A stretch of DNA of 48,772 nucleotides from Clostridia bacterium (GTDB lineage Bacteria > Bacillota > Clostridia > Christensenellales > Aristaeellaceae), in NCBI GenBank assembly GCA_017545905.1, contig JAFWXL010000012.1, positions 1 through 48,772 of the forward strand, given 5' to 3'. The translations under genes and the position numbers were made by a program. Shown here one piece after another: positions 21,621 to 43,357 of the stretch. Under the pieces are notes generated by a model. It searched no databases. It was not told the DNA's origin and saw nothing but the letters and a program-made list of their open reading frames with translations. How positions within the stretch are numbered: position 1 is the stretch's first letter; each line of letters starts with the position of its first letter.

Positions 21621-21758
21621 GTCCGTTGGGCTGCCGGTCCGGGAAGCCCGCATAGTCGCAATGTTCCATTGCTCCTTGCGGTTTCCCACACTCCGCCTTG
21701 CTCAATGCGTCCACTGGACGCGCTCGGCTTCGGTGCCAAACCCCTTTTTCGCTTCGCG
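21621..21758. repeat. Interspersed palindromic repeat R2 (with inverted module A hairpin)
   Basis: Begins with GTTGGGCTGCCGG (21625-21637), like hairpin 1 of the family. The module A hairpin follows in inverse orientation (21641-21687): outer GGGAA/TTCCC, middle CCGCA/TGCGG, inner GCAATG/CATTGC. It ends with the conserved tail ACCCCTTTTTCGCTTCGCG (21740-21758). Located between prmA and rsmE. Confidence 0.85.
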
Positions 21759-21790
21759 CATACAGATTGTTGCTCTGCAAATAATATGCT

Positions 21791-22735
21791 TTATACAGCC
21801 TTCGCCGCCAGGCAAACCCATGAACCCTTCGCCAGACGGTTGCACACTTCATAGCCCGCAGCAGCAAGCGCAGTCTGCACGTCGTCCTCGCGCTCGCGGA
21901 TGATGCCGGAGCAGATAAACGTTCCGCCCGGAAGCAGATGTTTCTTCGCCGGTCCGCACAGGAAGCAGATCACATCCGCGATGATGTTTGCCACGATGAC
22001 GTCGGCCATTTCGTCCGCCTTCTCCAGCAGATCGCCATGCACCACGCGCACCTTGTCGGCAAGGCCATTTTTGACGGTATTTTCCGCTGCAACCTTGACG
22101 GCAAGCTCGTCCAGATCGATGGCCAGCACGTCGTCAGATCCCAGCTTCGCCGCCGCAAGGCCCAGAATGCCGCTGCCGCAGCCCACGTCGATGGTCTTGC
22201 AGCCCGGAGTCACGTACTTTTCCAGCTGTTCCATGCACATGAACGTCGTCTCATGCGTGCCGGTGCCAAAGGCCATGCCCGGATCAAGCTCGAGCACAAG
22301 ATCGCCTTCCTTTTCTTCATAGGCTTCCCAGCTCGGCTTGATAACGAGCCTCTCGCCCGCGCGGAACGGCTTGTAATACTTCTTCCAGTTCTCCGCCCAG
22401 TCCTGCTCCTGCACATTCTGATTTTCGAGCGCAAGGCTGCCGATATCAAAGCCCATGTCAAAGCGCTTCAGCTCCGCAAGCTTTTCGCGCACCAGCAGCA
22501 TAATCTCCTGCACGGAGGCGTCATTCTTGAAATACGCCTTGACGAGCACATCCTCGCTCATTTTGGCGAGCACTTCCTCATCGATCATATCCCACATGCC
22601 ATCTTCCTTTTTGGAAGAGGTCACATCATACCGGTCCTCAATTGACGTGCCGACAGCGCCGGCATTCATCAGCACTTCGCTGACGATATCTGCACCCATG
22701 GTCGTGGTATGCACTACGGTTTCAAGCCAATCCAT
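21791..22735 (-). CDS. prmA: Ribosomal protein L11 methyltransferase
   Basis: A 314-residue enzyme that trimethylates ribosomal protein L11. The N-terminal substrate-binding domain (1-110) contains DWAENWKKYYKPFR. The catalytic domain has GMAFGTGTHETT (about 154-165), SAM motif TIDVGCGSGILGLAA and the VIVANIIADVI motif. An ATG with GAGG upstream begins MDWLETVVHTTT, a family-typical N-terminus. It normally follows dnaJ in Clostridia and does so here, but a terminator and 320 bp of repeat R3 separate them, so its 5' leader is largely repeat sequence. Confidence 0.95.
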   Translation of the reverse strand: MDWLETVVHTTTMGADIVSEVLMNAGAVGTSIEDRYDVTSSKKEDGMWDMIDEEVLAKMSEDVLVKAYFKNDASVQEIMLLVREKLAELKRFDMGFDIGSLALENQNVQEQDWAENWKKYYKPFRAGERLVIKPSWEAYEEKEGDLVLELDPGMAFGTGTHETTFMCMEQLEKYVTPGCKTIDVGCGSGILGLAAAKLGSDDVLAIDLDELAVKVAAENTVKNGLADKVRVVHGDLLEKADEMADVIVANIIADVICFLCGPAKKHLLPGGTFICSGIIREREDDVQTALAAAGYEVCNRLAKGSWVCLAAKAV

Positions 22736-22753
22736 ATTTATACCTCTCTATTC

Positions 22754-23075
22754 CTGGGCTGCCGCCCAGACCTGCCTGAGGGATTTCTATCTCCTCGCTC
22801 GACGCTCGTCGGTCATGACAGCTCTGACAGCCCACAGGGCTGTCATTCACTCCTGCCCCAGTTCGGAGAATCCGAACCCTCAGACTCCCTTCCTTGCTTC
22901 GCATCTGCATAAAGCAGCCGCGAAGCGGTAATGGGGTCTGGGGGACCGGAGTCTGCCGCGCCTGGTGGGCGAGACAGGCAGACGGAGTGTCGGAAATCGC
23001 AAGGAGCGCTTGCGCGACTATGCGAGTTTCCCGGAACTGCATCCCCAGATGGGTTTGGGCGATAGCCCAACGTTC
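22754..23075. repeat. Interspersed palindromic repeat R3 (composite, longest form)
   Basis: Modules in order on the plus strand: hairpin 1 CTGGGC/GCCCAG (22754-22759 / 22764-22769); stem 2 CTGAGGG (22776-22782) with CCCTCAG (22877-22883). Stem 2 encloses an inserted block that holds a 9-bp hairpin TGACAGCCC/GGGCTGTCA and a GTTCGG/CCGAAC hairpin (22861-22877). Then come the tail (22884-22903), a module A hairpin (22992-23031) and an inverted hairpin 1 TTGGGC/GCCCAA (23056-23061 / 23066-23071). It fills most of the 399 bp between prmA and dnaJ. Confidence 0.87.
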
Positions 23076-23087
23076 CCCTTACCCATA

Positions 23088-23123
23088 AAAAAGCCTGAAT
23101 AAGAGATAATTCTTACTCAGGCG
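23088..23123 (-). terminator. Terminator of the hrcA-grpE-dnaK-dnaJ operon
   Basis: A 12-bp stem with one G-T pair (23094-23105 / 23112-23123), followed on the minus strand by TTTTTT (23088-23093), 11 nt after the dnaJ stop. Confidence 0.92.
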
Positions 23124-23134
23124 ATGAAAACCCT

Positions 23135-24325
23135 TTATTTCTTGTCGAACTTTTCCTTAAAGCGCTCTGCGTTCTCTTTGATATAGCTCTTCACCTGATC
23201 GGTAAAGCTCTTGCGCTTCTCGTACTCACGACCGGAGAGCGATTCCTCGAACTGGCGAAGCAGTTCCTTCTGCTTCTCGCCCAGATGCTTAGGCACCTCA
23301 ACATGCACCGTGAAGAACAGATCGCCCTTCGCTGAGCCGCGCAGCTGCTGAATACCCTCAGAGCGGATGCGGAAAGACGTTCCCTCCTGCGTACCGGACG
23401 GGATGCTGTACTTCATCGTACCGCCGAGCGTAGGCACATCGATCTCGCCGCCCAGCGCCGCCTGCGTGAAGCTGATCGGCACATCACAGTACAGATCATA
23501 TCGGTCGCGCTTGAAAATCTTGTGCGGACGCACAGCGCAGGTCACGTACAGATCGCCGGCTGGTCCGCCATTGCGGCCCGGCTGGCCTTCGCCCGGAATG
23601 GTCTTGAAGTTCTGGCCGTCGTCCACGCCGGCAGGCACATTCATCGTCACGGTACGCGTCACGCGGGTAAAGCCGCTGCCGGAGCACTTCGTGCAGCGCT
23701 CCTTGATCGTCTTGCCCTTGCCCCCACAGGTCTGGCAGGTGCGCATCGTCTGTACCTGACCGAACGGCGAATTCACAGACACGCGCTGCTGGCCGCTGCC
23801 GCCGCAGGTCGGACAGGTCTGCGGCTGGGTGCCGGGCTTCGCGCCGGAACCATGACAGGCGTCACAGGTCGCGTTGCGCTGGAACTTGAATTCCTTCTTG
23901 CAGCCAAAGGCCGCCTCTTCAAACGACAGCGTCAGCGTATACTGCAGATCACTGCCGCGCTGCGGCGCATTCTGGCGCTGCGCAGTGCGCCCGCCAAAGC
24001 CGCCGAAGCCGCCAAAGCCGGTGCCATTGAACATATCGAAGATATCTTCAAAGCCGCTGAAGCCACTGAAGCCGCCGTAGCCCGCGCCTGCGCCCGCGCG
24101 CGGATCCTCATGGCCAAACTGATCATAGCGTGCGCGCGTCTGCGGATCGGAGAGCACCTCGTAGGCCTCGTTGATCTCCTTGAATCGTGCTTCGGCTTCT
24201 TTGTCATCGGGATGCAGGTCCGGGTGGCTGGCCTTGGCCGCCTTGCGGTATGCCTTTTTGATTTCGTCATCCGAGGCGCCCTTGGCAATGCCCAGTACCT
24301 CGTAATAATCTCTCTTGTCTGCCAC
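23135..24325 (-). CDS. dnaJ: Chaperone protein DnaJ (type I)
   Basis: A 396-residue Hsp40 that brings clients to DnaK and triggers its ATPase. The J domain (1-70) has HPD at 34-36; a Gly/Phe-rich region spans 78-112. Four zinc CxxC repeats are at Cys 154/157, 171/174, 197/200 and 211/214, followed by the client-binding C-terminal domain. The GTG giving (V)[11 protein letters not shown] is chosen because AGGTGG lies about 8 nt upstream and the product then starts like other DnaJ proteins; the frame opens 4 codons earlier. Last gene of the CIRCE-controlled operon. Confidence 0.96.
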
Positions 24326-24368
24326 AGCAGTCACCACCTATTCTGAAACTTGCTGTAAACCGCGCGAT

Positions 24369-24393
24369 GCCGCCGCCACATAGTGACGGCGGC
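24369..24393. repeat. GC-rich hairpin between dnaK and dnaJ
   Basis: Arms 24369-24379 and 24383-24393 pair over 11 positions with one mismatch and a 3-nt loop (left arm GCCGCCGCCAC). No T-run follows on the minus strand, so it does not look like a terminator. It may protect or process the operon mRNA. Confidence 0.6.
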
Positions 24394-24430
24394 CTGCGCT
24401 CTTTCATCCCGCAAAGGATAGTGTTATGTC

Positions 24431-24490
24431 AGGCTGCTGCCCGGACCCGCCTGAGGGATCATACCTTCAGACGCCCTTTATCGCTTCGCG
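24431..24490. repeat. Interspersed palindromic repeat R4 (short, degenerate)
   Basis: Weak hairpin 1 (GGC/GCC at 24432-24441), stem 2 CTGAGGG (24451-24457) with CCTTCAG (24464-24470), and the tail ending CGCTTCGCG (24471-24490). It lies between dnaK and dnaJ. Confidence 0.78.
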
Positions 24491-24516
24491 GTGTTCATTC
24501 ATGCCTTGCGATCCGA

Positions 24517-26343
<1,827 letters not shown>

Positions 26344-26468
26344 TTATTTTCCTCCTGTCATTCACGTTCGTGAGGTAGAGTTGTTTACTAAATCTGAAAT
26401 CTATCTTCCTCGGCACAGCATTTCTTTTGTCAAAACGCTATGCTTGAAGTGGAAACGGCCACAGACCG

Positions 26469-27101
26469 TTAACCAGCCACGACTTTGACCATCGCATGAC
26501 GGATCACACGATTGCCGAGCTTGTAGCCCTTCTGCAGAACCATGCACACCGTTCCCGGCTCACCCTCGTCCTCGCTGCCCTGCATCACGGCATTGTGCAG
26601 CTCGGCATCAAACGGCTGGCCCAGCGGATCAATCTCCTCCACGCCCATCTTAGCGAAGGTTTCCTTCGTCTGGCGCAGAACCATCTCCACGCCCGCCTTG
26701 AGGCCGCCCTCGCCCTCGCCGGCAGCAGCCAGCGCGCGCTCGAGGTTATCGATGACGGGCAGCAGCTTGTCAATCGCATCCCTGCGGCCATCGTCAAAGG
26801 CTTCCTGACGGACGCCTTCGGTGCGGCGGCGGTAGTTAGCGAATTCCGCCTGCTTACGCTGCGCCAGATCGAGATACTCGTCGCACTGCGCCTTTGTCTT
26901 GTCCAGTTCAGCCTGCAGCGCCGCAACGTCGACTTCCTGCGCGGTCGTCTCCTGTTCGGCTTCCTGCGTCACCTTGTTCTCTTCGCTCATGTTCCTCGCC
27001 CTTTCCGCCTTATCTTTGAGGCCTTCCGCAGCTTTGCGGATTCTGTCACGCAGAGTGGCATGCTCACCGCTCTCGTGTTGTTTTTCATGTCTGTTATTCA
27101 T
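26469..27101 (-). CDS. grpE: GrpE nucleotide exchange factor
   Basis: About 210 residues: a charged N-terminal tail, a long coiled coil (AALQAELDKTKAQCDEYLDLAQRK), FANYRRRTEGVRQEAF and the C-terminal beta domain ending LGNRVIRHAMVKVV. It releases ADP from DnaK. The start is uncertain. The ATG used here (27099-27101) overlaps the hrcA stop and suits coupling. A second ATG at 26988-26990, giving MSEENKVTQ with GAGG upstream, would make a 173-residue protein with a more family-like N-terminus. Confidence 0.93.
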   Translation of the reverse strand: MNNRHEKQHESGEHATLRDRIRKAAEGLKDKAERARNMSEENKVTQEAEQETTAQEVDVAALQAELDKTKAQCDEYLDLAQRKQAEFANYRRRTEGVRQEAFDDGRRDAIDKLLPVIDNLERALAAAGEGEGGLKAGVEMVLRQTKETFAKMGVEEIDPLGQPFDAELHNAVMQGSEDEGEPGTVCMVLQKGYKLGNRVIRHAMVKVVAG

Positions 27102-28131
27102 CTCTGCCCTGCTGATCAATCAGTGTATTCAGCGATCTGCCGACCTGAGATATCACCGAGAGCGCCTTGCCGTACTGCATGCGCGTCGGACCGATCAGGC
27201 CGAGCGTATTCACCCTGCCGTCGCTCAGGCGGTAGCTTGCCGTGACGATGGAGCAATCCTTCGTCTCCTCCATACCCGTCTCCGGGCCGATCCGCACGGA
27301 GATCTCCATCTCGCCATTGTGCGAGAGCAGAGAAACCACCTTTTCGCGGGTCTCCAGCACGCTGAGCAGCGCTTTAGCCTTATCCACATCCGAATACTCC
27401 GGGAAGCTCAGCAGGTTTGAGCGCCCGCCGACAGCCAGCGCAACAACGTCGCTCTGATTCTGAGAGGGCTGCTGCTCGGCCATTGCGCGTACAATCTGAT
27501 GAATGCCCGTTTCGCATCCGCCGGACAGCCTGAGCAGCGCGCCCGGCAGCTCGCTGAGTCTCATGCCTTCCAGCTGTGCACTCAGGATGCGGGAGACTGA
27601 ATAGAGCTCATCCGGCGCAACACGTCCGCCCAGATCCAGCAGACTCTGCTTGACTGCGCCGCTTCGCGTCACCAGAATCAAAAGCGCGCGCCTGTCCGAC
27701 ACCGAAACCAGCTGCAGGTGCGAGAGCACCTGTTCGTTTCGCGGCGTGGTGGTCATCACAGCGGCGGTGTAATGCGTCATGCTTGAAAGCGCCTTTGCAA
27801 TGCGCATGGACAGGTCATCCACCTGATGCATCCGCCTGTCGAAACAGCGATTGATGAACTCGGTCTCCTCAACGCTCAGCGGCATCGGACGCAGCATCTG
27901 ATCAACATACAGTCGGTATGCCTTGTTCGATGGGACGCGGCCTGCCGACGTATGCGGCGAATCGAGGTAACCCAGCTCCTCCAGATCGCTCATCTCGTTT
28001 CGGATCGTCGCCGAGGAGAGCTTCTGTTCGTATTTGCGTGAAATCGTTCGGGAACCGACGGGCAGCGCGGTCAGGATGTAGTCATCGATGATTGCCTGCA
28101 AGATTCTGTACTTGCGGTCGATGATATCCAC
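27094..28131 (-). CDS. hrcA: Heat-inducible transcription repressor HrcA
   Basis: A 345-residue repressor of class I heat-shock genes. The N-terminal winged helix (1-75, SSATIRNEMSDLEELGYL) binds CIRCE; the GAF-like and dimerisation domains follow, with LGLIGPTRMQYGKALSVI near the C-terminus. It starts with GTG, with AAAGGAGG 7 nt upstream. First gene of its operon; its own promoter carries CIRCE, so it represses itself, with GroEL known in other bacteria to keep HrcA active. Confidence 0.96.
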   Translation of the reverse strand: MDIIDRKYRILQAIIDDYILTALPVGSRTISRKYEQKLSSATIRNEMSDLEELGYLDSPHTSAGRVPSNKAYRLYVDQMLRPMPLSVEETEFINRCFDRRMHQVDDLSMRIAKALSSMTHYTAAVMTTTPRNEQVLSHLQLVSVSDRRALLILVTRSGAVKQSLLDLGGRVAPDELYSVSRILSAQLEGMRLSELPGALLRLSGGCETGIHQIVRAMAEQQPSQNQSDVVALAVGGRSNLLSFPEYSDVDKAKALLSVLETREKVVSLLSHNGEMEISVRIGPETGMEETKDCSIVTASYRLSDGRVNTLGLIGPTRMQYGKALSVISQVGRSLNTLIDQQGRDE

Positions 28132-28184
28132 CTGCGTTCCTCCTTTCGGTTTGCTGTGTCTACACCGGCGTTATTCCGGTTTTG

Positions 28185-28211
28185 TTAGCACTCATCGCGT
28201 TTGAGTGCTAA
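28185..28211 (-). promoter_or_regulatory. CIRCE operator (HrcA site)
   Basis: Exact consensus inverted repeat TTAGCACTC (28185-28193), 9-bp spacer, GAGTGCTAA (28203-28211). It lies just downstream of the -10 box, so bound HrcA would block initiation. Confidence 0.98.
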
Positions 28212-28222
28212 TCAGCATGATC

Positions 28223-28251
28223 AAGATACCACGCTTACCCCATTTTGTCAA
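28223..28251 (-). promoter_or_regulatory. Promoter of hrcA-grpE-dnaK-dnaJ
   Basis: TTGACA (28246-28251) and TATCTT (28223-28228), spacer 17 bp, minus strand, with CIRCE starting 11 bp after the -10. Confidence 0.88.
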
Positions 28252-28294
28252 CTGCTTTTCATATCTTTTTTGACTTTTCCTGTCCTTCAAGCCA

Positions 28295-28328
28295 AACGCT
28301 GAAGCATCCACAATGACACTTCAGCGTT
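28295..28328 (-). terminator. Probable hemW terminator
   Basis: Perfect 10-bp inverted repeat AACGCTGAAG (28295-28304) / CTTCAGCGTT (28319-28328), 12 nt past the hemW stop. The T-tract on the minus strand is weak (TTTGGCTT), so it may be inefficient. Confidence 0.6.
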
Positions 28329-28340
28329 GGTTTGTTGGTT

Positions 28341-29510
28341 TCAGTCGTCCGTTTGCGGTTTTGAATCCATTTCCTCCATCAGGCTCACCAGCACGCCGTT
28401 CATCACCTGCATGCCGCGCTGCGTTAGACGGATTCTTTCCTTATTACTTGCCATGAGCTTTTTGCCGGTCATCTCACCCATGGTTTCAGGCCAGACGTCC
28501 TGCGCCTGCACACCAAAGTCGCGCGCAAACCGCACGGCATCCACCCCTTTCGTCTGGCGAAGGCCCATCATCATCCGCTCAAACATCCGCTCCGTTCTTG
28601 AGCCGCCGCCCTCTTCTTTCCTCACCGTATCGCCGCGCTCCGCCATCTCAAGATACTCTTCCCAGCTTTGCGGATTATAAAACCTGCGGCCGTCCATATC
28701 ACTGTGCGCATTGAGCCCTACGCCCAGATACGGCAGACATTCCCAGTAGACAATGTTGTGCCGGCACTGCATGCCTGCTCTTGCAAAGTTAGATACCTCA
28801 TACTGCGCATAGCCTGCCTCGCGGGTCAGGCGCATGGTCAGCGCATCCATCTCCTCCATGGCGTCCTCATCGGGCAGAGGCGCGCACCTTCCCCTGTTCA
28901 CACTGTCAAACAGCGGCGTGCCCTCCTCCAGAATCAGGCTGTAGCAGCTCAGGTGATCCGGTTTAAGCGCAATTGCCTTTTGGAGCGTATCACGCCACTG
29001 CTGTGCAGTTTGTCCCGGCAGACCATACATCAGATCAAGGTTCAGGTTTTCAAAGCCCGCTTCGCGCGCCATGCGCACAGCCGCTTCGGCCTCCTTCGCC
29101 GTATGAATGCGTCCGATTGCTGCAAGCAGCGAATCGTCCATGCTCTGCACGCCAAGCGAAAGCCTGTTCACACCCGCTTCGTGGTATGCGCGCAGGTTCT
29201 TCATATTAAGCGTACCGGGGTTGCCCTCCATGCTGATTTCGGCGTCGGGCAATACGTCAAAGCAATCGTTCACAGTCTGCATGATCGATTGAATCTGTTT
29301 TCCGGAAAGCAGCGTCGGCGTGCCGCCGCCGAAGAAAACGGTTACTATGCGCCTGCGCCCAAAGAAAGCCGCCTGCGCGCGGATTTCGCGGCAGACGGCC
29401 TGAACATAGCGGTCCCGCTGCTCCATGTGTCCGGAAAAGGACGCAAAGTCGCAGTAGGCGCATTTCTTCACGCATAGCGGAATGTGGATATAAAGAGAAA
29501 TGGTTTCCAT
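28341..29510 (-). CDS. hemW: Radical SAM heme chaperone HemW
   Basis: A 389-residue protein with the cluster motif CVKKCAYC (Cys 13, 17, 20), GGGTPTLL, and the C-terminal HemN-like domain (RHNIVYWECLPYLGVGLNAHS). HemW binds heme and inserts it into respiratory proteins. It was long annotated as an oxygen-independent coproporphyrinogen oxidase, but it lacks the extra Cys seen in true HemN. It follows lepA across 474 bp of repeat R5; hemW downstream of lepA and upstream of hrcA is the usual Firmicutes order. Confidence 0.94.
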   Translation of the reverse strand: METISLYIHIPLCVKKCAYCDFASFSGHMEQRDRYVQAVCREIRAQAAFFGRRRIVTVFFGGGTPTLLSGKQIQSIMQTVNDCFDVLPDAEISMEGNPGTLNMKNLRAYHEAGVNRLSLGVQSMDDSLLAAIGRIHTAKEAEAAVRMAREAGFENLNLDLMYGLPGQTAQQWRDTLQKAIALKPDHLSCYSLILEEGTPLFDSVNRGRCAPLPDEDAMEEMDALTMRLTREAGYAQYEVSNFARAGMQCRHNIVYWECLPYLGVGLNAHSDMDGRRFYNPQSWEEYLEMAERGDTVRKEEGGGSRTERMFERMMMGLRQTKGVDAVRFARDFGVQAQDVWPETMGEMTGKKLMASNKERIRLTQRGMQVMNGVLVSLMEEMDSKPQTDD

Positions 29511-29530
29511 ATATTCCTTACGGGGATACG

Positions 29531-29873
29531 CAAGGGCTCTGCCCTTGAACCCGCCGAGGGAATTCTTCCCTCGGACTCCCTTCTTCGCTTCGCGGTGTTC
29601 TATTGATAGATTTCTTATATAACTCCGGGGATGCGTGAAGGGGCCACAGCCCCTTCATGTGAAATCCGCAGGAGCGGCATGTGCGGGCCGAAGGATCGTA
29701 GTCTGCCGCGCCAAGTGGGATCGGAATCTCGCTCGCCCAGTGGGCGAAACAGCGGGATGGAGATCTGAACTGTAAGGGAGCGCTTGCGTGACCATGACTG
29801 TTCCCGGACCGAAGCAGGCAGACGAAGCTCGGAACCATAAAGGAGCAACGTTCGTTGCGACTATTATTGTTCC
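29531..29873. repeat. Interspersed palindromic repeat R5 (composite)
   Basis: Hairpin 1 AAGGGC/GCCCTT (29532-29537 / 29541-29546), hairpin 2 CCGAGGGA/TCCCTCGG (29554-29561 / 29567-29574) and the tail ending CGCTTCGCG (29575-29594). Then come an 8-bp hairpin TGAAGGGG/CCCCTTCA (29636-29643 / 29650-29657), one decayed module A copy (about 29767-29814) and one well-formed copy (29831-29873). The good copy has outer GGAAC/GTTCC, middle ATAA/TTAT and inner GCAACG/CGTTGC. It lies between lepA and hemW. Confidence 0.85.
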
Positions 29874-29900
29874 CGGACTGGCTGCAAGCCGCTTCCTGTA

Positions 29901-29940
29901 TCATTTTCTGGCCGTGTGCCAAAGGCACACAAGAAAATGA
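29901..29940. repeat. Two-tier hairpin after lepA
   Basis: Outer stem TCATTTTCT (29901-29909) / AGAAAATGA (29932-29940) and inner stem GTGTGCC (29914-29920) / GGCACAC (29924-29930), perfectly paired within each tier. It is 44 nt past the lepA stop. No clear T-run follows in either direction, so its action as a terminator is uncertain. Confidence 0.65.
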
Positions 29941-29984
29941 TGTAAACCGGTTCAAATACGCGCAGCTGATTTAAATCGAAGGCA

Positions 29985-31790: not shown

Positions 31791-31813
31791 AGTGGATTCC
31801 TCCGTTGCTTGAA

Positions 31814-33450: not shown

Positions 33451-33461
33451 GCATCGCCTCC

Positions 33462-33491: not shown

Positions 33492-33501
33492 TTGTTCAGG
33501 C

Positions 33502-33670
33502 GGCTTCGAACAGACGCGAAGCGTAATCGGGCGTCTGAGGGTTCGGCTTTGCCGAACTGGGGCAGGCGTGAATGACAGCCCAGTGGTCTATCAGAGCTGC
33601 CCTGACCGACGAGCGTCGAGCGAGGAGAAAGAAATCCCCCAAGCAGGGCCCGGGGCGGCTGCCCCAGCTT
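33502..33670. repeat. Interspersed palindromic repeat R6 (inverse orientation, long form)
   Basis: Read on the minus strand this is a close relative of the left half of R3. It has hairpin 1 GGGGC/GCCCC (33652-33656 / 33661-33665), the block with the CTCGCTCGACGCTCGTCGG stretch, the GTTCGG(C)/(G)CCGAAC hairpin (33541-33557), and the tail ending CGCTTCGCG (33515-33534). It lies between the convergent LUD and ligase genes. Confidence 0.85.
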
Positions 33671-33679
33671 TACCTCATT

Positions 33680-34888: not shown

Positions 34889-34901
34889 ATTTGATCGCTC
34901 C

Positions 34902-36452: not shown

Positions 36453-36455
36453 GCT

Positions 36456-37277
36456 TTATCTCCCCTCCAGCAGGAAGCTGCCCACGATCCGCAGGAATTT
36501 CGCGTTCTGCTCCAGATAGGCAAAATGGCCGCAGCCCGGCTCCACAACAAGGCCCGCATCCGGAATCTTCTCTTCCATCAGCCGGCCCATCCAAAGCGGC
36601 GTCTCCGTATCCTGCTCGCCCCAGTACAGCAGCGTGGATGATTGTATCTTGTCAAGCCGGTCCGTCAGGTCCAGCGTAATCACTTTGTTGAATGTCTTTC
36701 TCATTTCGGGCGTGAGCGCACGGTAATCCGGCGAGCCGAATTTCTGCACCAGCGCTTCCCGGCCCTTTTCGGGCAGATCGCCGAAGATATGCGCCTTATC
36801 CAGCACGTTCATTGTGCCGCGCAGGCCCTTGTAGAGCTTCTGTTTGGCCGTCGCCTTGCCGGTGGCCGGCTTGCGGATGCCGGCTGCGCCGGTGAGAATC
36901 ATGCGGCCCACGAGTTCAGGATATGTGCTTGCAAGCAGAATTGCCACGCGTGCGCCGAAGGAATGCGCCACGATGTCGCACGGCGCAAGACCAAGCTCAC
37001 GAATCACCGCTGCGGTCATCTCCATGTATTCGGGAACGCCCCACGGCTCGGGCGGCTCGGGCGCCTTGCCCTGATTGCCGTGACCGGGAAAATCGATCGC
37101 CGCCACACGCATGTGTTTTGCCAAAAGGCCGGAAACGGTGCTCATCATCTGCGCAGAGCATCCCCAGCCGTGCAGAAGCAGCGCCGCGCGCTGTCCTTCT
37201 CCGCTGAGCATCACATCAACCTTTGCACCGCAAACATTCAGCTGCATGATCCCGCACTCAACCCCATTCTTTCCCAT
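36456..37277 (-). CDS. Alpha/beta hydrolase
   Basis: A 273-residue protein with the fold's oxyanion region LLLHGWGCSAQM, the nucleophile elbow AHSFGAR (Ser in the G/A-x-S-x-G position) and a C-terminal GCGHFAYLEQ carrying the catalytic His. A cap segment (about 150-200) lies between. It resembles small lipase/esterase and C-C hydrolase families; the substrate is unknown. First gene of the three-gene wall unit. The ATG at 37275-37277 has AGGAG 11 nt upstream; a second ATG ten codons later is possible. Confidence 0.85.
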   Translation of the reverse strand: MGKNGVECGIMQLNVCGAKVDVMLSGEGQRAALLLHGWGCSAQMMSTVSGLLAKHMRVAAIDFPGHGNQGKAPEPPEPWGVPEYMEMTAAVIRELGLAPCDIVAHSFGARVAILLASTYPELVGRMILTGAAGIRKPATGKATAKQKLYKGLRGTMNVLDKAHIFGDLPEKGREALVQKFGSPDYRALTPEMRKTFNKVITLDLTDRLDKIQSSTLLYWGEQDTETPLWMGRLMEEKIPDAGLVVEPGCGHFAYLEQNAKFLRIVGSFLLEGR

Positions 37278-37293
37278 AATTCTGGATTCTCCT

Positions 37294-37315
37294 ATTATAC
37301 TCCATTTTTTGTCAA
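37294..37315 (-). promoter_or_regulatory. Possible promoter of the hydrolase-murF-ddl unit
   Basis: TATAAT (37294-37299) lies 17-18 nt before the hydrolase start. A TTGACA (37310-37315) lies only 10 bp upstream of it, too close for a normal pair; at 17 bp the hexamer is a poor TTTTAT. The -10 is likely real and the -35 unclear. Confidence 0.45.
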
Positions 37316-37382
37316 AATAAAAGAGGGCAACGGCGATTGATGACCATTGTCCTTCTATTCTATGCGCGATATTCTGCCGTTT

Positions 37383-37862
37383 TCATTCTCCGCACGATTC
37401 AGTGTCTGCGTAATGAAACTCCTTATACATAATCAGCGCATCCTCTTTGTTATCCTCGTAGTAGCGCTTGCGATAGCCCACGTCCAGAAAGCCGCAGGCA
37501 TGATAGAGATTCTGCGCGGCAATGTTGGAACGGCGCACCTCCAGCGTCATCATGGACATGGAATTCTCCATGGCAAGCGCTTCCAGCGCCCTGAAAATCC
37601 GCATGCCGTAGCCCATGCGCCTGTGATCGGGATGCACCGCCACATTGCACACATGCGCCTCATCCAGCACAAACCACATACCCGCATAGGCCAGCACGTT
37701 TCCCGCGCCGTCATCATATACCAGCCAGCGCGCCACAACGTTTTCCTTCACGTCATGCAGGATCGATTCCTCGCTCCACGGCATCGCAAAGCATCGCTTC
37801 TCGATCTCATGGATCTGCGCGACGTCCTCCTCGCAGATGCCTCTGATAAAGGGCTCAGCCAT
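37383..37862 (-). CDS. rimI: GNAT acetyltransferase RimI (ribosomal protein S18 N-acetyltransferase)
   Basis: A 159-residue GNAT enzyme: IHEIEKRCFAMPWSEESILHD at the N-terminus (RimI signature), VAVHPDHRRMGYGMRIFRALE as the acetyl-CoA motif A, and LEVRRSNIAAQNLYHACGFLDVGYRKRYY. It acetylates the N-terminus of S18, possibly other proteins. The ATG at 37860-37862 has AAGGAG 7 nt upstream and overlaps the tsaB stop by 8 nt. tsaE-tsaB-rimI is the standard Firmicutes order. Confidence 0.94.
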   Translation of the reverse strand: MAEPFIRGICEEDVAQIHEIEKRCFAMPWSEESILHDVKENVVARWLVYDDGAGNVLAYAGMWFVLDEAHVCNVAVHPDHRRMGYGMRIFRALEALAMENSMSMMTLEVRRSNIAAQNLYHACGFLDVGYRKRYYEDNKEDALIMYKEFHYADTESCGE

Positions 37863-38580
37863 TTGCATTCTCCTTCTGGGCGGCCAGCTTTGCCGCACGC
37901 TCGCGCTCCGCCTGCGGCGCGCGCAGATACAGCGGCAGCAGCGTCATGCAGTCTTTCAGATTCGCTTCGTCTTTTGCATATTCAGCCGCCAGCGCGCAGG
38001 CGCTCGCCGCGCGAAGCCCTGCGTGATGCGCTGGCGCAAAATGTGCCTTATCGCCCAGCTGCTCGCGGATCACCGTTTCAAACGCCGCCGCACCGTCGCC
38101 AAGGAACAGCGCATCGCGGCCATCTGCCTTCACGCGTTCCAGATACACGGTCAGCTTTTCGGCTTCGTCGTCCATGATCCTGACAGGCGGCATGCCGCTT
38201 TCAAACATCGCGCCGTACACCTGCTGCGCCCGGGCGTCCAGAATTGGACAGACCAAGCCGTCAAATCCGCTCACATTCGCCGCCAGCGCCTCCAGCGCGT
38301 CCACGCCGATGCAGGGTTCGCCTGCCGCATGCGCAAGCGCCTTCACGCTCGACACGCCGATACGAACGCCGGTAAACGAACCCGGCCCCGCCACTGCGCC
38401 GAACAGATCGATATCAGCAACCGTCATTTCGCACATAGTAAGCGCCTGATCGACCATCGGCATCACACGCTGAGAGTGCGTCTTTCCGCTGGTGAGCTGC
38501 AGCTCGCATATGATCTGACCATCCTTCATCACAGCCACGCTGCACGCCGGGCCGGAGGTATCAATCATCAGAATATTCAT
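37855..38580 (-). CDS. tsaB: tRNA t6A37 biosynthesis protein TsaB
   Basis: A 241-residue ASKHA-fold protein, MNILMIDTSGPACSVAVMKD at the N-terminus and GAVAGPGSFTGVRIGVSSVKALA as the family core. TsaB dimerises with TsaD and scaffolds the complex that moves the threonylcarbamoyl group to A37. The start is set by GGAGG 6 nt before the ATG; the gene overlaps tsaE by 20 nt and rimI by 8 nt. tsaD is not in this window. Confidence 0.95.
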   Translation of the reverse strand: MNILMIDTSGPACSVAVMKDGQIICELQLTSGKTHSQRVMPMVDQALTMCEMTVADIDLFGAVAGPGSFTGVRIGVSSVKALAHAAGEPCIGVDALEALAANVSGFDGLVCPILDARAQQVYGAMFESGMPPVRIMDDEAEKLTVYLERVKADGRDALFLGDGAAAFETVIREQLGDKAHFAPAHHAGLRAASACALAAEYAKDEANLKDCMTLLPLYLRAPQAERERAAKLAAQKENANG

Positions 38581-39067
38581 GGCAGGCCTCCATCTTATCA
38601 AGGATTTCGCTGATCCGCGCCTCATCAAACGCACCGGACGGCACAAGGGTGATCGCCCTGGCCATGCCGTCGTTTGCATAGCGGATGTCGATTGCCAGAT
38701 GATCGGGCGGCATCGCCTCCTGTGCCATCTGCGGCCATTCGATCAGCGATACGCCGTCGCGCGCGGGGATGAACTCGTCCAGCCCCATTTCATAAAGCGC
38801 ATCCTCACCCTCCAGACGGTACAGATCGAAGTGATAGAGTTTCATTTCTCGTCCGTCGTGGATATTGAGGATGGTAAACGTCGGGCTGGGCACAGGGCCG
38901 CATACGCCCATGCCGCGGGCTGCCGCGCGGGTGAGCACGCTCTTGCCCGCGCCCATCTCGCCTTCCAGCAGCACAACATCGCCCGCACGCAGACAAGCGC
39001 CCAGGGCATAGCCCAGGCGCTGCGTCTGATTTTCAACCGTACTAAGCAAAGAATACAAGATAGTCAC
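38561..39067 (-). CDS. tsaE: tRNA t6A37 biosynthesis ATPase TsaE
   Basis: A 168-residue P-loop protein with Walker A LEGEMGAGKSVLTR (34-47), PSPTFTILN, and HFDLYRLEG as the Walker B-side motif. TsaE resets the TsaB-TsaD complex with ATP. GTG is the apparent start, but no good Shine-Dalgarno precedes it, so the start is less certain. It follows ribU by 22 nt. Confidence 0.94.
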   Translation of the reverse strand: MTILYSLLSTVENQTQRLGYALGACLRAGDVVLLEGEMGAGKSVLTRAAARGMGVCGPVPSPTFTILNIHDGREMKLYHFDLYRLEGEDALYEMGLDEFIPARDGVSLIEWPQMAQEAMPPDHLAIDIRYANDGMARAITLVPSGAFDEARISEILDKMEACHEYSDD

Positions 39068-39089
39068 CCGTTATTTCGTTTGGCAGATC

Positions 39090-39692
39090 TCAGCGGCTGC
39101 CCTTCTGATGCAGCAGCGGAGACACGCGCTTATAGAGCAGATACGTCACAGCACTGAGTACGACAGCCTTGAAAACATTGAACGGCGCAGTGATCGCCAG
39201 CACCAGTTCAACCGTCGTATCGATGAAGCCAAGCACCTTCTGGCCCATGCCGATGATCACCTCAAGCGGCAGGTTCATCAGCACCTGATATGCCGGAATG
39301 AGGATGAAGTAGTTGACCAGCACAGCAGCCACAACCATGGTCACAGAACCGATGAGCATCGCCACCAGCGCGCTCCTGCGGTCCTTATGACGGCGGTAAT
39401 ACAGGCTCGCGGGCACGACAAACGCACATGACATCAGGATATCCGCCAACTCGCCCACGCAGGCCGTGCTCGTTCCCAGCATATGCACCAGATTCTTGAC
39501 GATGATGACCGCAATGCCCTGAATCGGACCCATCGCAAATCCGGCCAGAATCGCCGGCAGCGTGGATAGGTCGAGCTTGTAAAAAGCCACAACCGGGATC
39601 TCGATGTAGAACAGGATCACGGCCATCGCGCTGAGCAAGCCGCAGCGGGTCAGGTTGAACATGGCGTTTGAGTTTCTCTTGGACTGGATCAT
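39090..39692 (-). CDS. ribU: ECF transporter S component for riboflavin (RibU-like)
   Basis: A 200-residue hydrophobic protein with about six membrane helices. The core FYIEIPVVAFYKLDLSTLPAIL and GFAMGPIQGIAVIIVKNLVHM matches RibU-type S components; the Asp/Leu-rich segment lines the vitamin pocket in known structures. The FMN riboswitch upstream strongly supports riboflavin as ligand. It needs the shared EcfAA'T module, not seen here. AAGGAG lies 7 nt before the ATG; the longer open frame upstream is leader. Confidence 0.93.
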   Translation of the reverse strand: MIQSKRNSNAMFNLTRCGLLSAMAVILFYIEIPVVAFYKLDLSTLPAILAGFAMGPIQGIAVIIVKNLVHMLGTSTACVGELADILMSCAFVVPASLYYRRHKDRRSALVAMLIGSVTMVVAAVLVNYFILIPAYQVLMNLPLEVIIGMGQKVLGFIDTTVELVLAITAPFNVFKAVVLSAVTYLLYKRVSPLLHQKGSR

Positions 39693-39744
39693 GATATTTC
39701 TCCTTCCGGCGCATATGCGCCTATGCACATTTACCGACAAGACA

Positions 39745-39771
39745 GCCCCTGAAAGCTGAGCGATCAGGGGC
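39745..39771 (-). terminator. Hairpin between FMN riboswitch and ribU (expression platform?)
   Basis: Stem GCCCCTGA (39745-39752) / TCAGGGGC (39764-39771), 11-nt loop. The downstream tract on the minus strand is only TGTCTTGTC, weaker than a normal terminator. It lies between the aptamer and the ribU start, where the expression platform is expected. Confidence 0.6.
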
Positions 39772-39901
39772 CGTTTGCGATGTAAATTTTCCTGCAAAGC
39801 ATCAGCCTCGTTTGCAAACCAGCGAGTTCTTCGCCAGTTTGTCGGTGATGCCGCCGGCAGCATGCCGGTCTGCAATGCAAAATACGCACAAAGGAGATTG
39901 G

Positions 39902-40011
39902 CTCTTCTTCCATCCAGACTATACTGTCGGCTCCGGAATCACACCGGATCAACCTGTTACGGCTCGCGGGCTGTACCGCCGGTAGGGACTTGCACCCTGC
40001 CCTGAAGATCT
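39902..40011 (-). promoter_or_regulatory. FMN riboswitch (RFN element)
   Basis: The minus strand shows the RFN hallmarks in order: ATCTTCAGGGCAGGGTG, CCCTACCGGCGGTA, AGCCCGCGAGCC, GATCCGGTGTGATTCCGG, AGCCGACAGTATAGTC and GGATGGAAGAAGA. FMN binding would lower ribU expression. Confidence 0.97.
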
Positions 40012-40039
40012 CTCAAAGACTGCTTATTCAGTTGGCCTT

Positions 40040-40068
40040 ATTATAATATAGCCTTTTTTTCCTGTCAA
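40040..40068 (-). promoter_or_regulatory. Promoter of the FMN riboswitch-ribU unit
   Basis: TTGACA (40063-40068) and TATAAT (40040-40045), 17-bp spacer. The -35 is 9 bp past the merR-type gene stop. Confidence 0.9.
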
Positions 40069-40077
40069 TACGGGCGC

Positions 40078-40827
40078 TTATCTTTTTGCCGTGCAATATG
40101 CAATCGCACGGGACATGCATGCCGCCGTGCCCTCGCCGCTGCGGTCGATATTCGCGCGGAAACGCTCATCCTCCATATACATCCGGCCGAGGCCTGCGAG
40201 AATCTCGTCTGTACAGGCATAGAAATGATCCGTGATATACCGCTGCCAGTCCCTGACCAGCTGCTGCACACGCTCATCCGCAGGCTCAAGATCGCGCACG
40301 GCGGCAAACTTCGCAAACAGTGCCTCCATACCGCTCTGGATATTCTGCCAGTCGGCCTTGCCATACTGCGCCGTTCGCTTCTCGCTTTCCTTCCAGGCCG
40401 CAGTATCTCCCCATCGCTCCTTTGCTTCTTCGGCGTACTGCCGCTTTGTCTTTTCGATTTCGCTCATGTCAAATACCTCCAATACTGGCGAGCTTTTGCC
40501 CATCATCGCCTCATCCAGCCGCGCAATCATCGCATCAATACGCAGGCGCTGCAATTCAAGCAGCTGCTTTTGCCGGCGCATCGCCTCTCGTGCATCATAA
40601 TCCGGGCTTTGCATAATCGCTTTGATCTCATCGAGCGCAAACCCCAGTTCTCTGAAATAGAGAATCTGCTCCAGACGCGAAGCCGCCTCCTTGTCGTAAA
40701 GGCGGTAGCCCGTCTGCGTTACTTCGCTCGGCACAAGCAGCCCGATGGCGTCATAATGCCGAAGCGTTCGCACGCTCACACCCGCGCGCTTTGCCATTTC
40801 TCCGATGCCAATGAAGCCTTGTGTCAT
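40078..40827 (-). CDS. MerR-family regulator with TipAS domain
   Basis: A 249-residue regulator. The MerR winged helix (5-75: IGEMAKRAGVSVRTLRHYDAIGLL, GYRLYDKEAASRLEQILYFRELGF) is followed by a coiled coil (about 80-108) and a C-terminal TipAS ligand domain (125-245: WGDTAAWKESE, AKFAAVRDLEPADERVQQLV, MYMEDERFRANIDRSGEGTAA). TipAS domains bind thiopeptides or other small, often cationic drugs. It is probably an autoregulated activator: its promoter has the 19-bp spacer and palindrome typical of MerR targets. No obvious efflux gene is adjacent. Confidence 0.93.
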   Translation of the reverse strand: MTQGFIGIGEMAKRAGVSVRTLRHYDAIGLLVPSEVTQTGYRLYDKEAASRLEQILYFRELGFALDEIKAIMQSPDYDAREAMRRQKQLLELQRLRIDAMIARLDEAMMGKSSPVLEVFDMSEIEKTKRQYAEEAKERWGDTAAWKESEKRTAQYGKADWQNIQSGMEALFAKFAAVRDLEPADERVQQLVRDWQRYITDHFYACTDEILAGLGRMYMEDERFRANIDRSGEGTAACMSRAIAYCTAKR

Positions 40828-40859
40828 AAAGCTCTCCCCGTTCCATTCGATTCAGCTTC

Positions 40860-40878
40860 GTGTACCGGCCGGGTACAC
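40860..40878. repeat. Palindrome at the start of the merR-type transcript
   Basis: GTGTACC (40860-40866) / GGTACAC (40872-40878) with a 5-bp centre, lying just downstream of the -10 box and so around the transcription start. A candidate second binding site or a 5' mRNA hairpin. Confidence 0.55.
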
Positions 40879-40882
40879 GTCA

Positions 40883-40913
40883 AGCATACGTCATGACGCA
40901 GCGTCAGGGTCAA
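40883..40913 (-). promoter_or_regulatory. MerR-type promoter/operator (19-bp spacer)
   Basis: TTGACC (40908-40913) and TATGCT (40883-40888) on the minus strand are 19 bp apart. The spacer holds a perfect 13-bp dyad, TGACGC-A-GCGTCA (40894-40906). Overlong spacers with a central dyad are the hallmark of MerR-activated promoters, so the downstream MerR gene probably controls itself here. The -35 includes the stop codon of the ydcF gene. Confidence 0.82.
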
Positions 40914-41476
40914 GCTGTTTTCTGATCTTTTTTTCGCTCCTTTTTTCCATAAATCAGACCAAAGAGCATGCGCATCCATTTGGGACGCACTGCGGATTGC
41001 TGATTCCAGTTCACCAGCATGTCAATTGTATAGGGAAGCTCTGTCCGCTTCTTTTCCTTCCACGCATCATCATGGGGCAGCACGGCAGCATAGCCCTTTG
41101 CCCGAAAGCCCGCACGCATCGCCGTCAGCACGCTGCGGCGCACATGGTAATCGCTGGTGACCACCAGCACACGCTTTCCCTTTGCCCCTCCAAGCGCATC
41201 TGCGGCAAAACGCATATTCTCAATGGTGATCTGCGATTGATTCTCAAGCAGGATATTTTCCTGCGCAACACCCTCTTCAAGCAGCAGCGCCTGCATGACC
41301 TCTGCCTCGGAGACATGATGCCCCTCTGTTGTGCCGCCGCAGGCGACGATGACATCCGAATATCCTTCCCTGTATGCCTTTGCCGCCGCCTTCACACGCA
41401 GGCGCAGCTCCTGTGTTGCCTGATCGTTTTCATCCAGACCATAGCCCAGCAGCAGAATCGCATCGTATTTTTTCAT
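40910..41476 (-). CDS. YdcF-family protein (DUF218)
   Basis: A 188-residue protein with the DUF218 pattern: ILLLGYGLDEND at the N-terminus, GYSDVIVACGG, TIENMRFAADAL and VLVVTSDYHVRRSV. Members bind SAM or act in envelope/sugar-related steps; the reaction is unclear. Lys/Arg-rich C-terminus, no signal peptide or membrane segment, unlike the longer ElyC type. Its own promoter faces the peptidase gene promoter. Confidence 0.85.
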   Translation of the reverse strand: MKKYDAILLLGYGLDENDQATQELRLRVKAAAKAYREGYSDVIVACGGTTEGHHVSEAEVMQALLLEEGVAQENILLENQSQITIENMRFAADALGGAKGKRVLVVTSDYHVRRSVLTAMRAGFRAKGYAAVLPHDDAWKEKKRTELPYTIDMLVNWNQQSAVRPKWMRMLFGLIYGKKERKKDQKTA

Positions 41477-41505
41477 GCTATTGTCTCCCTTGGTTTCTCG
41501 CTTTC

Positions 41506-41534
41506 ATTGTAGCGCAGCGTCCGCACCGCGTCAA
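41506..41534 (-). promoter_or_regulatory. Promoter of the YdcF-family gene
   Basis: TTGACG (41529-41534) and TACAAT (41506-41511), 17-bp spacer, minus strand, about 30 nt before the start codon. Confidence 0.8.
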
Positions 41535-41542
41535 TGCGTACC

Positions 41543-41571
41543 TTGCTCAGCACACGGTTTCATAGTATAAT
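41543..41571 (+). promoter_or_regulatory. Promoter of the M28 peptidase gene
   Basis: TTGCTC (41543-41548) and TATAAT (41566-41571), 17-bp spacer. Its -35 is only 8 bp from the divergent -35 of the YdcF-family gene. Confidence 0.8.
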
Positions 41572-41608
41572 ATAAGCAGTGAATTTCATAAGAAGGAGCG
41601 ACCCTGCC

Positions 41609-42838
41609 ATGAATATAGACAAGATCAACCGCATCCTGCAGGAAACCGCCTACATCCGCACCGGCGGCAGCGAGCAGGAGCTTGCCTGCGCGGATTATCT
41701 CAAGACCGAATGCGAAAAACTCGGCTTTTCTGCGCATCTGGAGGCATTTGACGTGCCTATGGCTGCGATCCGGTCTGCCAGCCTGATCGTGGACGGCAAG
41801 TCAATCCCCTGCAAGGGCTATCTGTGCGCAGGCAGTGCCGAAATCGAAGCGCCGCTGTACTATATGCCTGAGGTCACACCCTGTGCGCTTTCCCAGTGCA
41901 GAGGAAAGATCGTGCTGCTGGACGGCTATCTGGGCTACTGGAAGTATCAGGATATCCTTGCAAACGGCGCCGCCGGCTTCATCACCTATGACGGCAACGC
42001 CAACTATGCCGACGAGGACATCGATCAGCGCGAGCTGCGCTCCTACGTGAGCAAGGGCGTGAAACTCCCCGGCGTAAACATCAACGCGAAATCCGCCATC
42101 GCACTGGTAGCAGCCTGCGCCGAAACGGCGAAAATCTCCCTTGCGCAGGACGAGTGGAACGGCCATTCTCACAACGTGATTGCTGAGCTTCCGGGCGAGA
42201 CGGACGAGTGGATCGCGCTCACCGCGCACTACGATACCACCTCCCTCTCCACCGGCGCATACGACAACATGTCCGGCTGCATCGGCCTTCTGGGCATCGC
42301 CGAAGCTTTTGCTGCCGGTCCGCGCCGCCGCGGCCTGCGCCTGGTTTTCTGCGGCAGCGAAGAGCGCGGTCTGCTGGGTTCCAAGGCTTACTGTGCTGCG
42401 CACGAGGGTGAGCTTGCCAAAGTCGTGCTCAATGTGAATCTGGATATGATCGGCTCGATTATGGGTCCCTTCAATGCCGTCTGCACCACTGAAGAGCGCC
42501 TTGTTCATTACATCGATTACCTCGCCTCCATTGAAGGATTCCCGCTCAAGTCGCGTCAGGATATCTATTCCAGCGATTCCACGCCCTTTGCGGACAAAGG
42601 CGTGCCTGCCGTCTCCTTTGCGCGCAATGCGACCAGCAACACCGCCACCATCCACAACAGCTATGACACGCTCAAAGTGATGAGCGCCGCGCAGCTTGCC
42701 CGCGACATTGATTTTATCTGCGCATTCGTGGGCGCCATGGCAAACGCCGCGCATTTTCCCGTCAAGCGCGAGATACCCGAAAAGATGAAAGAAAAGCTGG
42801 ACGCCTATCTCACCCGCAAGCGTCCCAAGGACGCATAA
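41609..42838 (+). CDS. M28-family zinc aminopeptidase with PA-like insert
   Basis: A 409-residue peptidase. The M28 metal ligands are all visible: TAHYDTT (His), GAYDNMSG (bridging Asp), CGSEERGLLGS (catalytic Glu and Glu ligand), VNLDMIG (Asp) and IHNSYDT (His). An inserted PA-like segment (about 90-150, RGKIVLLDGYLGYWKYQDILANGAAG) sits before the catalytic part. No signal peptide, so it is probably cytoplasmic. AAGGAG lies 10 nt before the ATG chosen here. The small Cys gene follows 18 nt later. Confidence 0.92.
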   Translation: MNIDKINRILQETAYIRTGGSEQELACADYLKTECEKLGFSAHLEAFDVPMAAIRSASLIVDGKSIPCKGYLCAGSAEIEAPLYYMPEVTPCALSQCRGKIVLLDGYLGYWKYQDILANGAAGFITYDGNANYADEDIDQRELRSYVSKGVKLPGVNINAKSAIALVAACAETAKISLAQDEWNGHSHNVIAELPGETDEWIALTAHYDTTSLSTGAYDNMSGCIGLLGIAEAFAAGPRRRGLRLVFCGSEERGLLGSKAYCAAHEGELAKVVLNVNLDMIGSIMGPFNAVCTTEERLVHYIDYLASIEGFPLKSRQDIYSSDSTPFADKGVPAVSFARNATSNTATIHNSYDTLKVMSAAQLARDIDFICAFVGAMANAAHFPVKREIPEKMKEKLDAYLTRKRPKDA

Positions 42839-42856
42839 GGAGGCCATGCAGAAATC

Positions 42857-43084
42857 ATGAGCATTCTGATCAAGGATACGACGCGCGAGGAGCGCGAGCG
42901 CATTGTGAATGAATCACTCGGCGCGATGGACGCTTCCTGCGACGGCTGCAGCGCCGGGCTGTATGAAATGTATGAGGATTATATCGAAGGCCGCCGAGAG
43001 CTGCGCGAGATCAACATGCAGTACCGCTCCGGCTACGTGCGCTCAAACACAAAGCCCGACCGCATCGGCTGCGGGATGGGTTAA
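42857..43084 (+). CDS. Small conserved-looking Cys protein
   Basis: A 75-residue hydrophilic protein (MSILIKDTTREERERIVNES, then CDGCSAGLYEMYEDYIEGRR and a CGMG end). The CxxC and the C-terminal Cys could bind metal. I recall similar small proteins in Clostridia, sometimes misnamed as purine-synthesis proteins, without known function. It follows the peptidase gene in one unit, with AAGGAGG upstream. Confidence 0.75.
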   Translation: MSILIKDTTREERERIVNESLGAMDASCDGCSAGLYEMYEDYIEGRRELREINMQYRSGYVRSNTKPDRIGCGMG

Positions 43085-43090
43085 GGATAA

Positions 43091-43357
43091 CGTTAGGGCT
43101 GCCGCCCTAATGCCTGCTTGGGGACATTGTCCCCAAACCCCTATTACGCTTCGCGCCGGTTTTAAGTATCATACCCGCATTCCCTCCGCTGCGCGCATGC
43201 GCGCAGCGATGAAGGGTGCAGGGGACCGAGACCGGCCGCGCCCAGTGGGCGAAACAGGCAGGCGGAGCGTCGGGAATCGCAAGGAGCGCTTGCGCGACTA
43301 TGCGAGTTCCCCGGATCATTGTCCCTGCCAGGGGTATGGGGACAGCGTCCCCATACG
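43091..43357. repeat. Interspersed palindromic repeat R7 (composite, both ends hairpins)
   Basis: Hairpin 1 TTAGGGC/GCCCTAA (43093-43099 / 43104-43110), hairpin 2 TTGGGGAC/GTCCCCAA (43118-43125 / 43129-43136), tail (43137-43155). A perfect 20-bp palindrome of GC alternation follows (43188-43207), then a module A hairpin (43271-43313). The far end has a 9-bp hairpin TATGGGGAC/GTCCCCATA (43335-43343 / 43347-43355). It fills the gap between the small Cys gene and the isomerase terminator. Confidence 0.87.

Follow-up and report, generated by a model that had tools for sequence, protein, structure and literature searches.

Organisation and copies of the repeated hairpin

The 48,772-nucleotide (nt) contig JAFWXL010000012.1 of a Clostridia bacterium from the Aristaeellaceae (assembly GCA_017545905.1), analysed here over its whole length and referred to as the window, carries four hairpins with differing stems around the words AGGA and GACTA, and raises the question of what kind of element would keep these words while its stems change. 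A sequence-only reading had proposed a selected RNA or single-stranded DNA (ssDNA) structure with an invariant internal loop. The comparative analysis outlines what is probably one half of a structure-selected, non-autonomous mobile element, for which covarying structure, dispersal, presence or absence at orthologous sites, nesting and a preference for GG are taken here as observed.

The hairpin of interest, termed module A, usually constitutes the 3' half of a double hairpin of about 90-99 nt within the genus and of up to 108 nt in other genera. It presents the layout GGGAATCGCA-AGGA-...-GACTA-TGCGAGTTCCC, followed by CGGA. The second hairpin, module B, precedes it in the window and in most of the fetched copies, with the layout [G/C]ACC-GAA-GCCTGCC...GGCAGGC-GGA-G-C-GT[C/G]; module A stands without module B in a few copies elsewhere (locus L025, and the longer hairpins of L009 and others). 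The elements of the window, labelled R2, R3, R5 and R7, and the host palindrome H that R3 interrupts are as follows.

21638 to 21736, minus strand: R2, full double-hairpin element (module B and module A); cmsearch with model R1, 91.7 bits, E 2.5e-21
21641 to 21687, minus strand: module A hairpin of R2 (AGGA/GACTA; inner stem GCAATG/CATTGC); sequence and motif scan
22943 to 23035, plus strand: R3, full double-hairpin element; cmsearch, 109.4 bits, E 9.1e-26
22992 to 23031, plus strand: module A hairpin of R3; sequence and motif scan
22917 to 23079, plus strand: host palindrome H (CGCGAAGCG-type hairpin and two hairpins), interrupted by R3; sequence, limits by eye, element-free counterpart in genome G003
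29693 to 29877, plus strand: R5 outer element (29693-29717 and 29809-29877); sequence, limits by eye
29718 to 29808, plus strand: R5 inner element, within the outer copy, with motif GGGA/GACCA; cmsearch, 63.4 bits, E 3.7e-14
43223 to 43315, plus strand: R7, full double-hairpin element in a host palindrome hairpin (CAGGG...TCCCTG); cmsearch, 109.3 bits, E 9.5e-26
43271 to 43313, plus strand: module A hairpin of R7; sequence and motif scan

Sequence inspection and a motif scan bore out the coordinates and stems originally given for the four module A hairpins. The scan, which sought AGGA-N6..23-GACTA and required three or more pairs in both the inner and the outer stem, returned exactly four sites in the window (R2, R3, R5 and R7); 100 mononucleotide shuffles gave 0.01 on average. 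With the loop words permuted (360 permutations) the mean was 0.03, and no other word pair had more than one site. The genome of origin (G000; a 2.53 Mb draft in 115 contigs, 78% complete) contains 49 matches to CAAGGAGN{4,14}CGACTATG and none to the reversed control. The inner stems show compensated variation among the matches listed, the pattern itself fixing the motif and its adjoining pairs.

Covariation of the double hairpin

The consensus structure was derived with RNAalifold from an alignment of 52 full copies (A1), and comprises 28 pairs, 16 of them with double changes, with 98.5% of cells paired. Shuffled alignments averaged 9.6 double-changed pairs (0 of 500 as high as the observed 16), and 1 to 8 were obtained when slid. 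Under a home-made tree-aware null, in which substitutions were redistributed on the branches of a FastTree tree and column pairs were scored with a G-test and average product correction, two of the 28 pairs in A1 reached E<0.05 over all column pairs. Both lie in module B, and no pair outside the structure reached this level; the module A pairs 56/90 and 57/89 stood at 0.05. In a further alignment (A3), composed mostly of the top model matches, five of the 28 pairs passed, three of them in module A (56/121 and 57/120 in the middle stem and 67/105 in the inner stem), and the sole outside pair, 70/102, is an extension of the inner stem. Since A1 is the source of the structure, and A3 was built by fitting to the model, these figures lean toward the structure.

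The stems hence covary, and the loop varies less freely than they do. The earlier proposal of a selected single-stranded fold around a fixed motif is supported in this respect, although the unit of selection appears as a two-hairpin mobile repeat and not as the single hairpin initially put forward.

The AGGA/GACTA motif

In the RNAalifold structure the leading A and G of AGGA are paired with the T and C of GACTA, leaving a tandem G.A/A.G and one bulged A. On this modelled structure, the loop is best read as an A-U pair, a G-C pair, tandem G.A pairs and a bulged A, so that the internal loop of the original description would be in part Watson-Crick paired. The motif is found in 115 of the 118 rows with letters at these positions in alignment A2, whose loci were mostly fetched with patterns demanding AGGA/GACTA, and in 88 of 102 rows of A3, which partly holds the same elements. 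Five genomes of other genera contributed 19 rows, of which 13 have the motif, and the core that stays fixed there is GA...GA and the final A.

Within the window, the invariance that had been claimed holds for the four named copies and fails in the fifth and weaker one (29718-29808), which carries GGGA/GACCA. This double change, converting A-U into G-C, occurs in one row each of A2 and A3 and, by eye, also in L165; a second one, AAGA/GATTA, occurs in one A2 row. These two rare double changes suggest that the first two motif positions form Watson-Crick pairs. Against pairing at the second position, five A3 rows (ACGA/GACTA, ATGA/GATTA and ATGA/GACTA) are unpaired there. A kink-turn was considered and rejected on inspection, because the bulge lies on the wrong side of the G.A pairs for the kink-turn layout. 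A protein might possibly bind the motif, as had been surmised.

Several loci of G000 (L017, L009, L016 and L022, some at contig ends) present a longer hairpin that combines module A with a second, outer AGGA/GACAA loop. The outer loop of the L017 hairpin is the GACTA version, and L014 is among the other carriers of an outer loop of the AGGA/GACWA kind (by eye). The longer-hairpin repeat of the L017 type often terminates contigs.

Insertion polymorphism at orthologous spacers

The genes lepA, hemW, dnaK, dnaJ, prmA and rsmE follow one another on the minus strand of the window. R2 occupies the second hairpin of H in the prmA-rsmE spacer and R3 the first hairpin of H in the dnaJ-prmA spacer, while R5 lies beside H, not within it, in the lepA-hemW spacer. 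These three spacers are swollen in the genome of origin because of the inserted elements. Its prmA-rsmE spacer measures 205 nt and consists of H with R2. The counterpart in G003, whose PrmA is 96% identical, measures 108 nt and consists of H with its hairpin intact and no element, and that of G022 measures 207 nt and holds H, whose other hairpin is occupied by a different copy. The prmA-rsmE spacer is 4-51 nt long in 22 of the 27 relatives compared, and other long spacers are seen in G010, G007 and G008. The dnaJ-prmA spacer was measurable in 24 relatives (47-263 nt), and its G003 counterpart is, by eye, H without R3. For lepA-hemW, 474 nt long in the genome of origin, nine relatives were measurable: G022 (175 nt; the same H, no element), G003 (105 nt; H), G005 (177 nt) and six others with 2-19 nt.

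The presence of H without the element in relatives indicates that H was already in place when R2 and R3 were inserted. A model search of 40 loci around prmA (28 genomes) or hemW (12), own included and with the flanks of some loci interrupted by contig ends, matched only R2, R3, the inner R5 copy and one copy in G022. R2, R3 and the R5 pair are found only in the genome of origin and in none of the relatives examined, a pattern that shows mobility.

Target site and nesting

The base preceding the element is G in 88% of 75 de-duplicated genus sites and the first model base is G in 96%, with C enriched at positions +8 to +10 downstream. A total of 87 copies could be mapped to H. Of these, 80 have their midpoint within 6 nt of the centre of a main tip (the first tip in 49 cases and the second in 31), a criterion for which about half of the H positions qualify. 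Four others follow AAGGG in the body of H and three lie elsewhere. Strictly inside the apical loops of H there are 24 of the 87 copies, against 18% expected (p 0.018), and insertion usually follows a GGG directly, on the 5' edge of the tip. In spite of the palindromic nature of the tips, 79 of the 87 copies share the orientation of H, which points either to recognition of one H strand or to H and its insert spreading as a unit.

Contiguous flank stems of at least 6 pairs are present at 24 of 93 sites, compared to 5.3% in swapped flanks. The duplex energy of the flanks also beats that of swapped ones (75 of 10,000 permutations as good), yet only 10 of 102 flanks rank their own partner among the best 5%. 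In G109 and G089, several copies (e.g. L236, L237 and L246) lie between long matching arms of GCCGCTTTTTCTTTT-type palindromes. The element also nests in itself. R5 is one copy inside the module B apical loop of another, the interrupted outer copy retaining its own module A at 29831-29873, and in L028 and L035 a copy lies inside the inner hairpin of another module A. With regard to the features that mark a miniature inverted-repeat element (MITE) of a DDE transposon, namely terminal inverted repeats and a target-site duplication, the ends of the element are only weakly complementary to each other and no duplication was seen by eye. A half-site search over the fetched loci for an autonomous version with an internal open reading frame (ORF) gave only self-nested, truncated or unrelated sites.

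A second nested family of about 105 nt (TTCGG...CCGAACTGGGGCAGG...GACCGACGAGCGTCGAGCGAGGAG) occupies the same first-hairpin loop of H at 22771-22919 and 33499-33647. The two arms are 83% complementary, making them inverted copies, and the family is also present in the G010 spacer.

Distribution of the element

Scoring only the best first-look candidates, model R1 matched 62 copies in the 2.5 Mb draft of origin and at least one in 21 of the 29 genus genomes. Counts elsewhere included 120 in G033, 109 in G026, 77 in G022, 52 in G036 and 47 in G011; G006 and G012 gave one weak match each, and the copy-free genomes include G002, G004, G024, G025 and G035. Stricter filters were applied to 200 genomes sampled evenly from the order, of which 16 had matches (own included; 15 of the 199 others), spanning 14 of 103 genera. 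Copies outside the genus have unrelated stems and mostly the same motif. Named matches of one fixed-length pattern belong to uncultured Clostridia metagenome-assembled genomes, several of them labelled as water deer, buffalo, goat or sheep hindgut. Seven of the 64 stretches found with this pattern (L068, L090, L092, L098, L099, L107 and L111) lack stems and were set aside as chance.

Full copies are also present in three viral contigs, L113, L114 and L295. The L113 copy lies near portal and terminase genes, and L114 holds three full and two partial copies together with genes for a portal, a head protein and a primase. The partial ones are 64-base stretches that comprise module B and the 5' arm of module A and stand in tandem before one full copy (L114:775-996). 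Of six viral contigs in all, the other three (L292-L294) had no model match and were taken as chance.

No Rfam family reached its gathering score for the element in a search of the whole window, and in the R7 region nothing came near the cut-off. The two Rfam matches that the window did yield, an FMN riboswitch (39898-40013, minus strand) and an L20 leader (1493-1607, minus strand), are unrelated and ordinary. Some copies adjoin structural RNA genes: in L164:96-203 the copy adjoins a 5S rRNA gene, after an apparent repeated 5' fragment of 5S, and in L159 two tandem copies lie in an apparent second, broken tRNA-Asn copy beside an intact tRNA gene (both by eye). On contigs C2, C4 and C11 of the near-complete genome G109 (L296-L306), nearly all listed copies are on the minus strand, for which GC skew offers no explanation.

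Proposed mechanism and alternative explanations

A mobile element of this kind would fold into a pair of neighbouring hairpins, module B and a module A that carries the tandem-G.A motif. A trans-acting enzyme would bind the folded strand, more likely ssDNA than RNA, at its G.A motif. If only folded copies are recognised and copied, selection would act on the fold while inserted copies decay freely. Insertion would take place just 3' of GG; within the genus its main site would be an H hairpin tip, on the 5' edge, and it would sometimes fall in the element itself, giving rise to nested hairpins. Selection on the fold hence looks tied to mobility rather than to a local RNA function, in view of the absence of R2, R3 and R5 from the orthologous sites of relatives, of the mixed orientation with respect to genes (from crude gene calls) and of departures from pairing in which A.C is about as common as G.T (40 and 53, respectively; p 0.21). 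Such similar departures suggest that copies decay regardless of an RNA strand, no RNA strand standing out at each locus, and selection on active source copies, not on every locus, is the most likely origin of the covariation.

Several results weigh against this interpretation. The folding energy of a single copy is ordinary for its composition (z of -0.25 as RNA and -0.14 as DNA, and -0.83 in a third run), so the evidence for the fold is the covariation. The 87 H copies were not de-duplicated and may not be independent, if H and its insert spread as one unit. A strict joined-flank test of hairpin-tip targeting gave 26 of 102 against 19.8 expected, a moderate signal outside H that depends on the setting, and 36 settings of hairpin-tip tests (not de-duplicated) ranged from no excess (14 of 74 against 13.1) up to 105 of 182 against 58.3. 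No target-site duplication was recognised by eye at empty and filled pairs, and orientation agreed with GC skew in 8 of 17 stretches, with no lagging-strand signature. Nor does an enzyme follow the copies among the 29 genus genomes, in which, as drafts, a gene could be missed. Y1_Tnp (PF01797) matched in 16 and in none of G000, G026, G036, G011 and G034; RVT_1 (PF00078) in nine and in none of G000, G022, G026, G033 and G036; and the transposase of IS110 or bridge-RNA elements (PF01548) in seven and in none of G000, G022, G026, G033, G036 and G011. All three are without matches in G000, G036 (94% complete), G026, G027, G034 and G010. As these families do not track copy number, the proposed mechanism goes no further than trans recognition of a folded strand.

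The same covariation and the non-canonical G.A motif, of a kind common in RNA, could also denote an RNA-level element, either a functional non-coding RNA or a retro-mobile RNA inserting in hairpin loops, with selection on the RNA fold. A single co-directional gene cluster holds three of the four window sites in its spacers, and the shared orientation of copies and H, despite the palindromic tips, would fit recognition of one strand. We regard this alternative as rather unlikely: a selected RNA strand should favour G.U, an excess not apparent in the departures from pairing given above, and copies between co-directional genes split into 5 sense and 16 antisense, with 17 between convergent and 16 between divergent genes, a count based on crude gene calls from which 33 of 94 copies in long ORFs (many surely spurious) were dropped. 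Moreover, RVT_1 was not found in 20 of the 29 genomes, copy-rich ones included, and no Rfam family matched.

A structured, non-coding, high-copy repeat inserted 3' of the short fixed target GG likewise recalls ssDNA transposons, which insert 3' of a short fixed target, and a repetitive extragenic palindrome (REP) moved by a Y1 transposase of the HUH type (REP-associated tyrosine transposase, RAYT), as in REPINs, would find a candidate enzyme in the Y1_Tnp matches of 16 genomes. These matches, however, include the copy-free G002, G004, G024, G025 and G035, whereas none was obtained in G000 (62 copies), G026 (109), G036 (52; 94% complete) or G011 (47; 96%). The element also lacks an unpaired GTAG or CGTC tag and any strand bias with GC skew, and we consider this origin improbable. 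It is very improbable that the copies serve neighbouring genes as cis-acting hairpins for protein binding or termination, having arisen or spread through ordinary recombination. Such a role would suit the location of three window sites in spacers of one conserved gene cluster, yet the same spacers are element-free in every relative examined, bar one differently placed copy, and copies also occur in viral contigs and next to or in the second tRNA-Asn copy (by eye).

Within the interpretation of module A as half of a mobile element, we tentatively suggest, with more doubt than confidence, a mobile class that targets folded hairpin tips, is itself a hairpin and builds hairpin-on-hairpin stacks, being recognised as a folded strand through its tandem-G.A motif and moved by an enzyme other than Y1, IS110 or a reverse transcriptase.

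Comparison with known systems

A literature search, with most subscription journals outside its coverage and hence no proof of absence, returned no report of such an element in Clostridia. The observations connect insertion polymorphism at individual bacterial loci with a single-stranded fold that covaries, and the copies extend to viral contigs and to several families of the order. They also make the movement of very small non-coding repeats testable, through known empty sites, a fixed motif and copy-rich genomes for an enzyme search.

Miniature elements derived from IS200/IS605 have hairpins near their ends and insert 3' of a short target. The Clostridia element resembles them in both respects and differs in that no Y1 gene tracks its copies and no GC-skew strand signal is present. 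The small dispersed repeats (SDRs) of cyanobacteria, as reportedly described by Elhai and coworkers in 2008, are very small non-coding repeats with compensatory changes that nest in themselves and in other repeats and have no cognate enzyme. Compensatory changes, dispersal, self-nesting and the lack of coding capacity, all marks of SDRs, are seen in the Clostridia element, which by analogy works like them. In contrast to SDRs, which are units of 21-27 nt in cyanobacteria, it is a two-hairpin unit of 90-108 nt with a fixed tandem-G.A motif and a GG or hairpin-tip target.

Insertion of one repeat into another is described for SDR5 in HIP1 (PMC4390886). REPs, as defined in PMC3733652, are palindromes of 20-40 bp with an unpaired GTAG or CGTC tetranucleotide at one end, and the CGTC class is apparently without a dedicated transposase. 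The Clostridia element is likewise a palindromic repeat for which no dedicated transposase is apparent, but it consists of two unlike hairpins and has no such unpaired tag: it starts with G[G/C]ACC, and its internal CGTC (A1 columns 47-50) is paired in three of four columns and varies to CGTG, CATC and TGTC. A further parallel in behaviour may be drawn with mitochondrial GC clusters and hairpin elements, which, according to PMC4478555 and PMC2800124, spread, merge and shuffle by an amplification mechanism that is unsettled. They inhabit an organelle and not a bacterium, and are likened to the Clostridia element by behaviour, not by sequence, as hairpins that spread.

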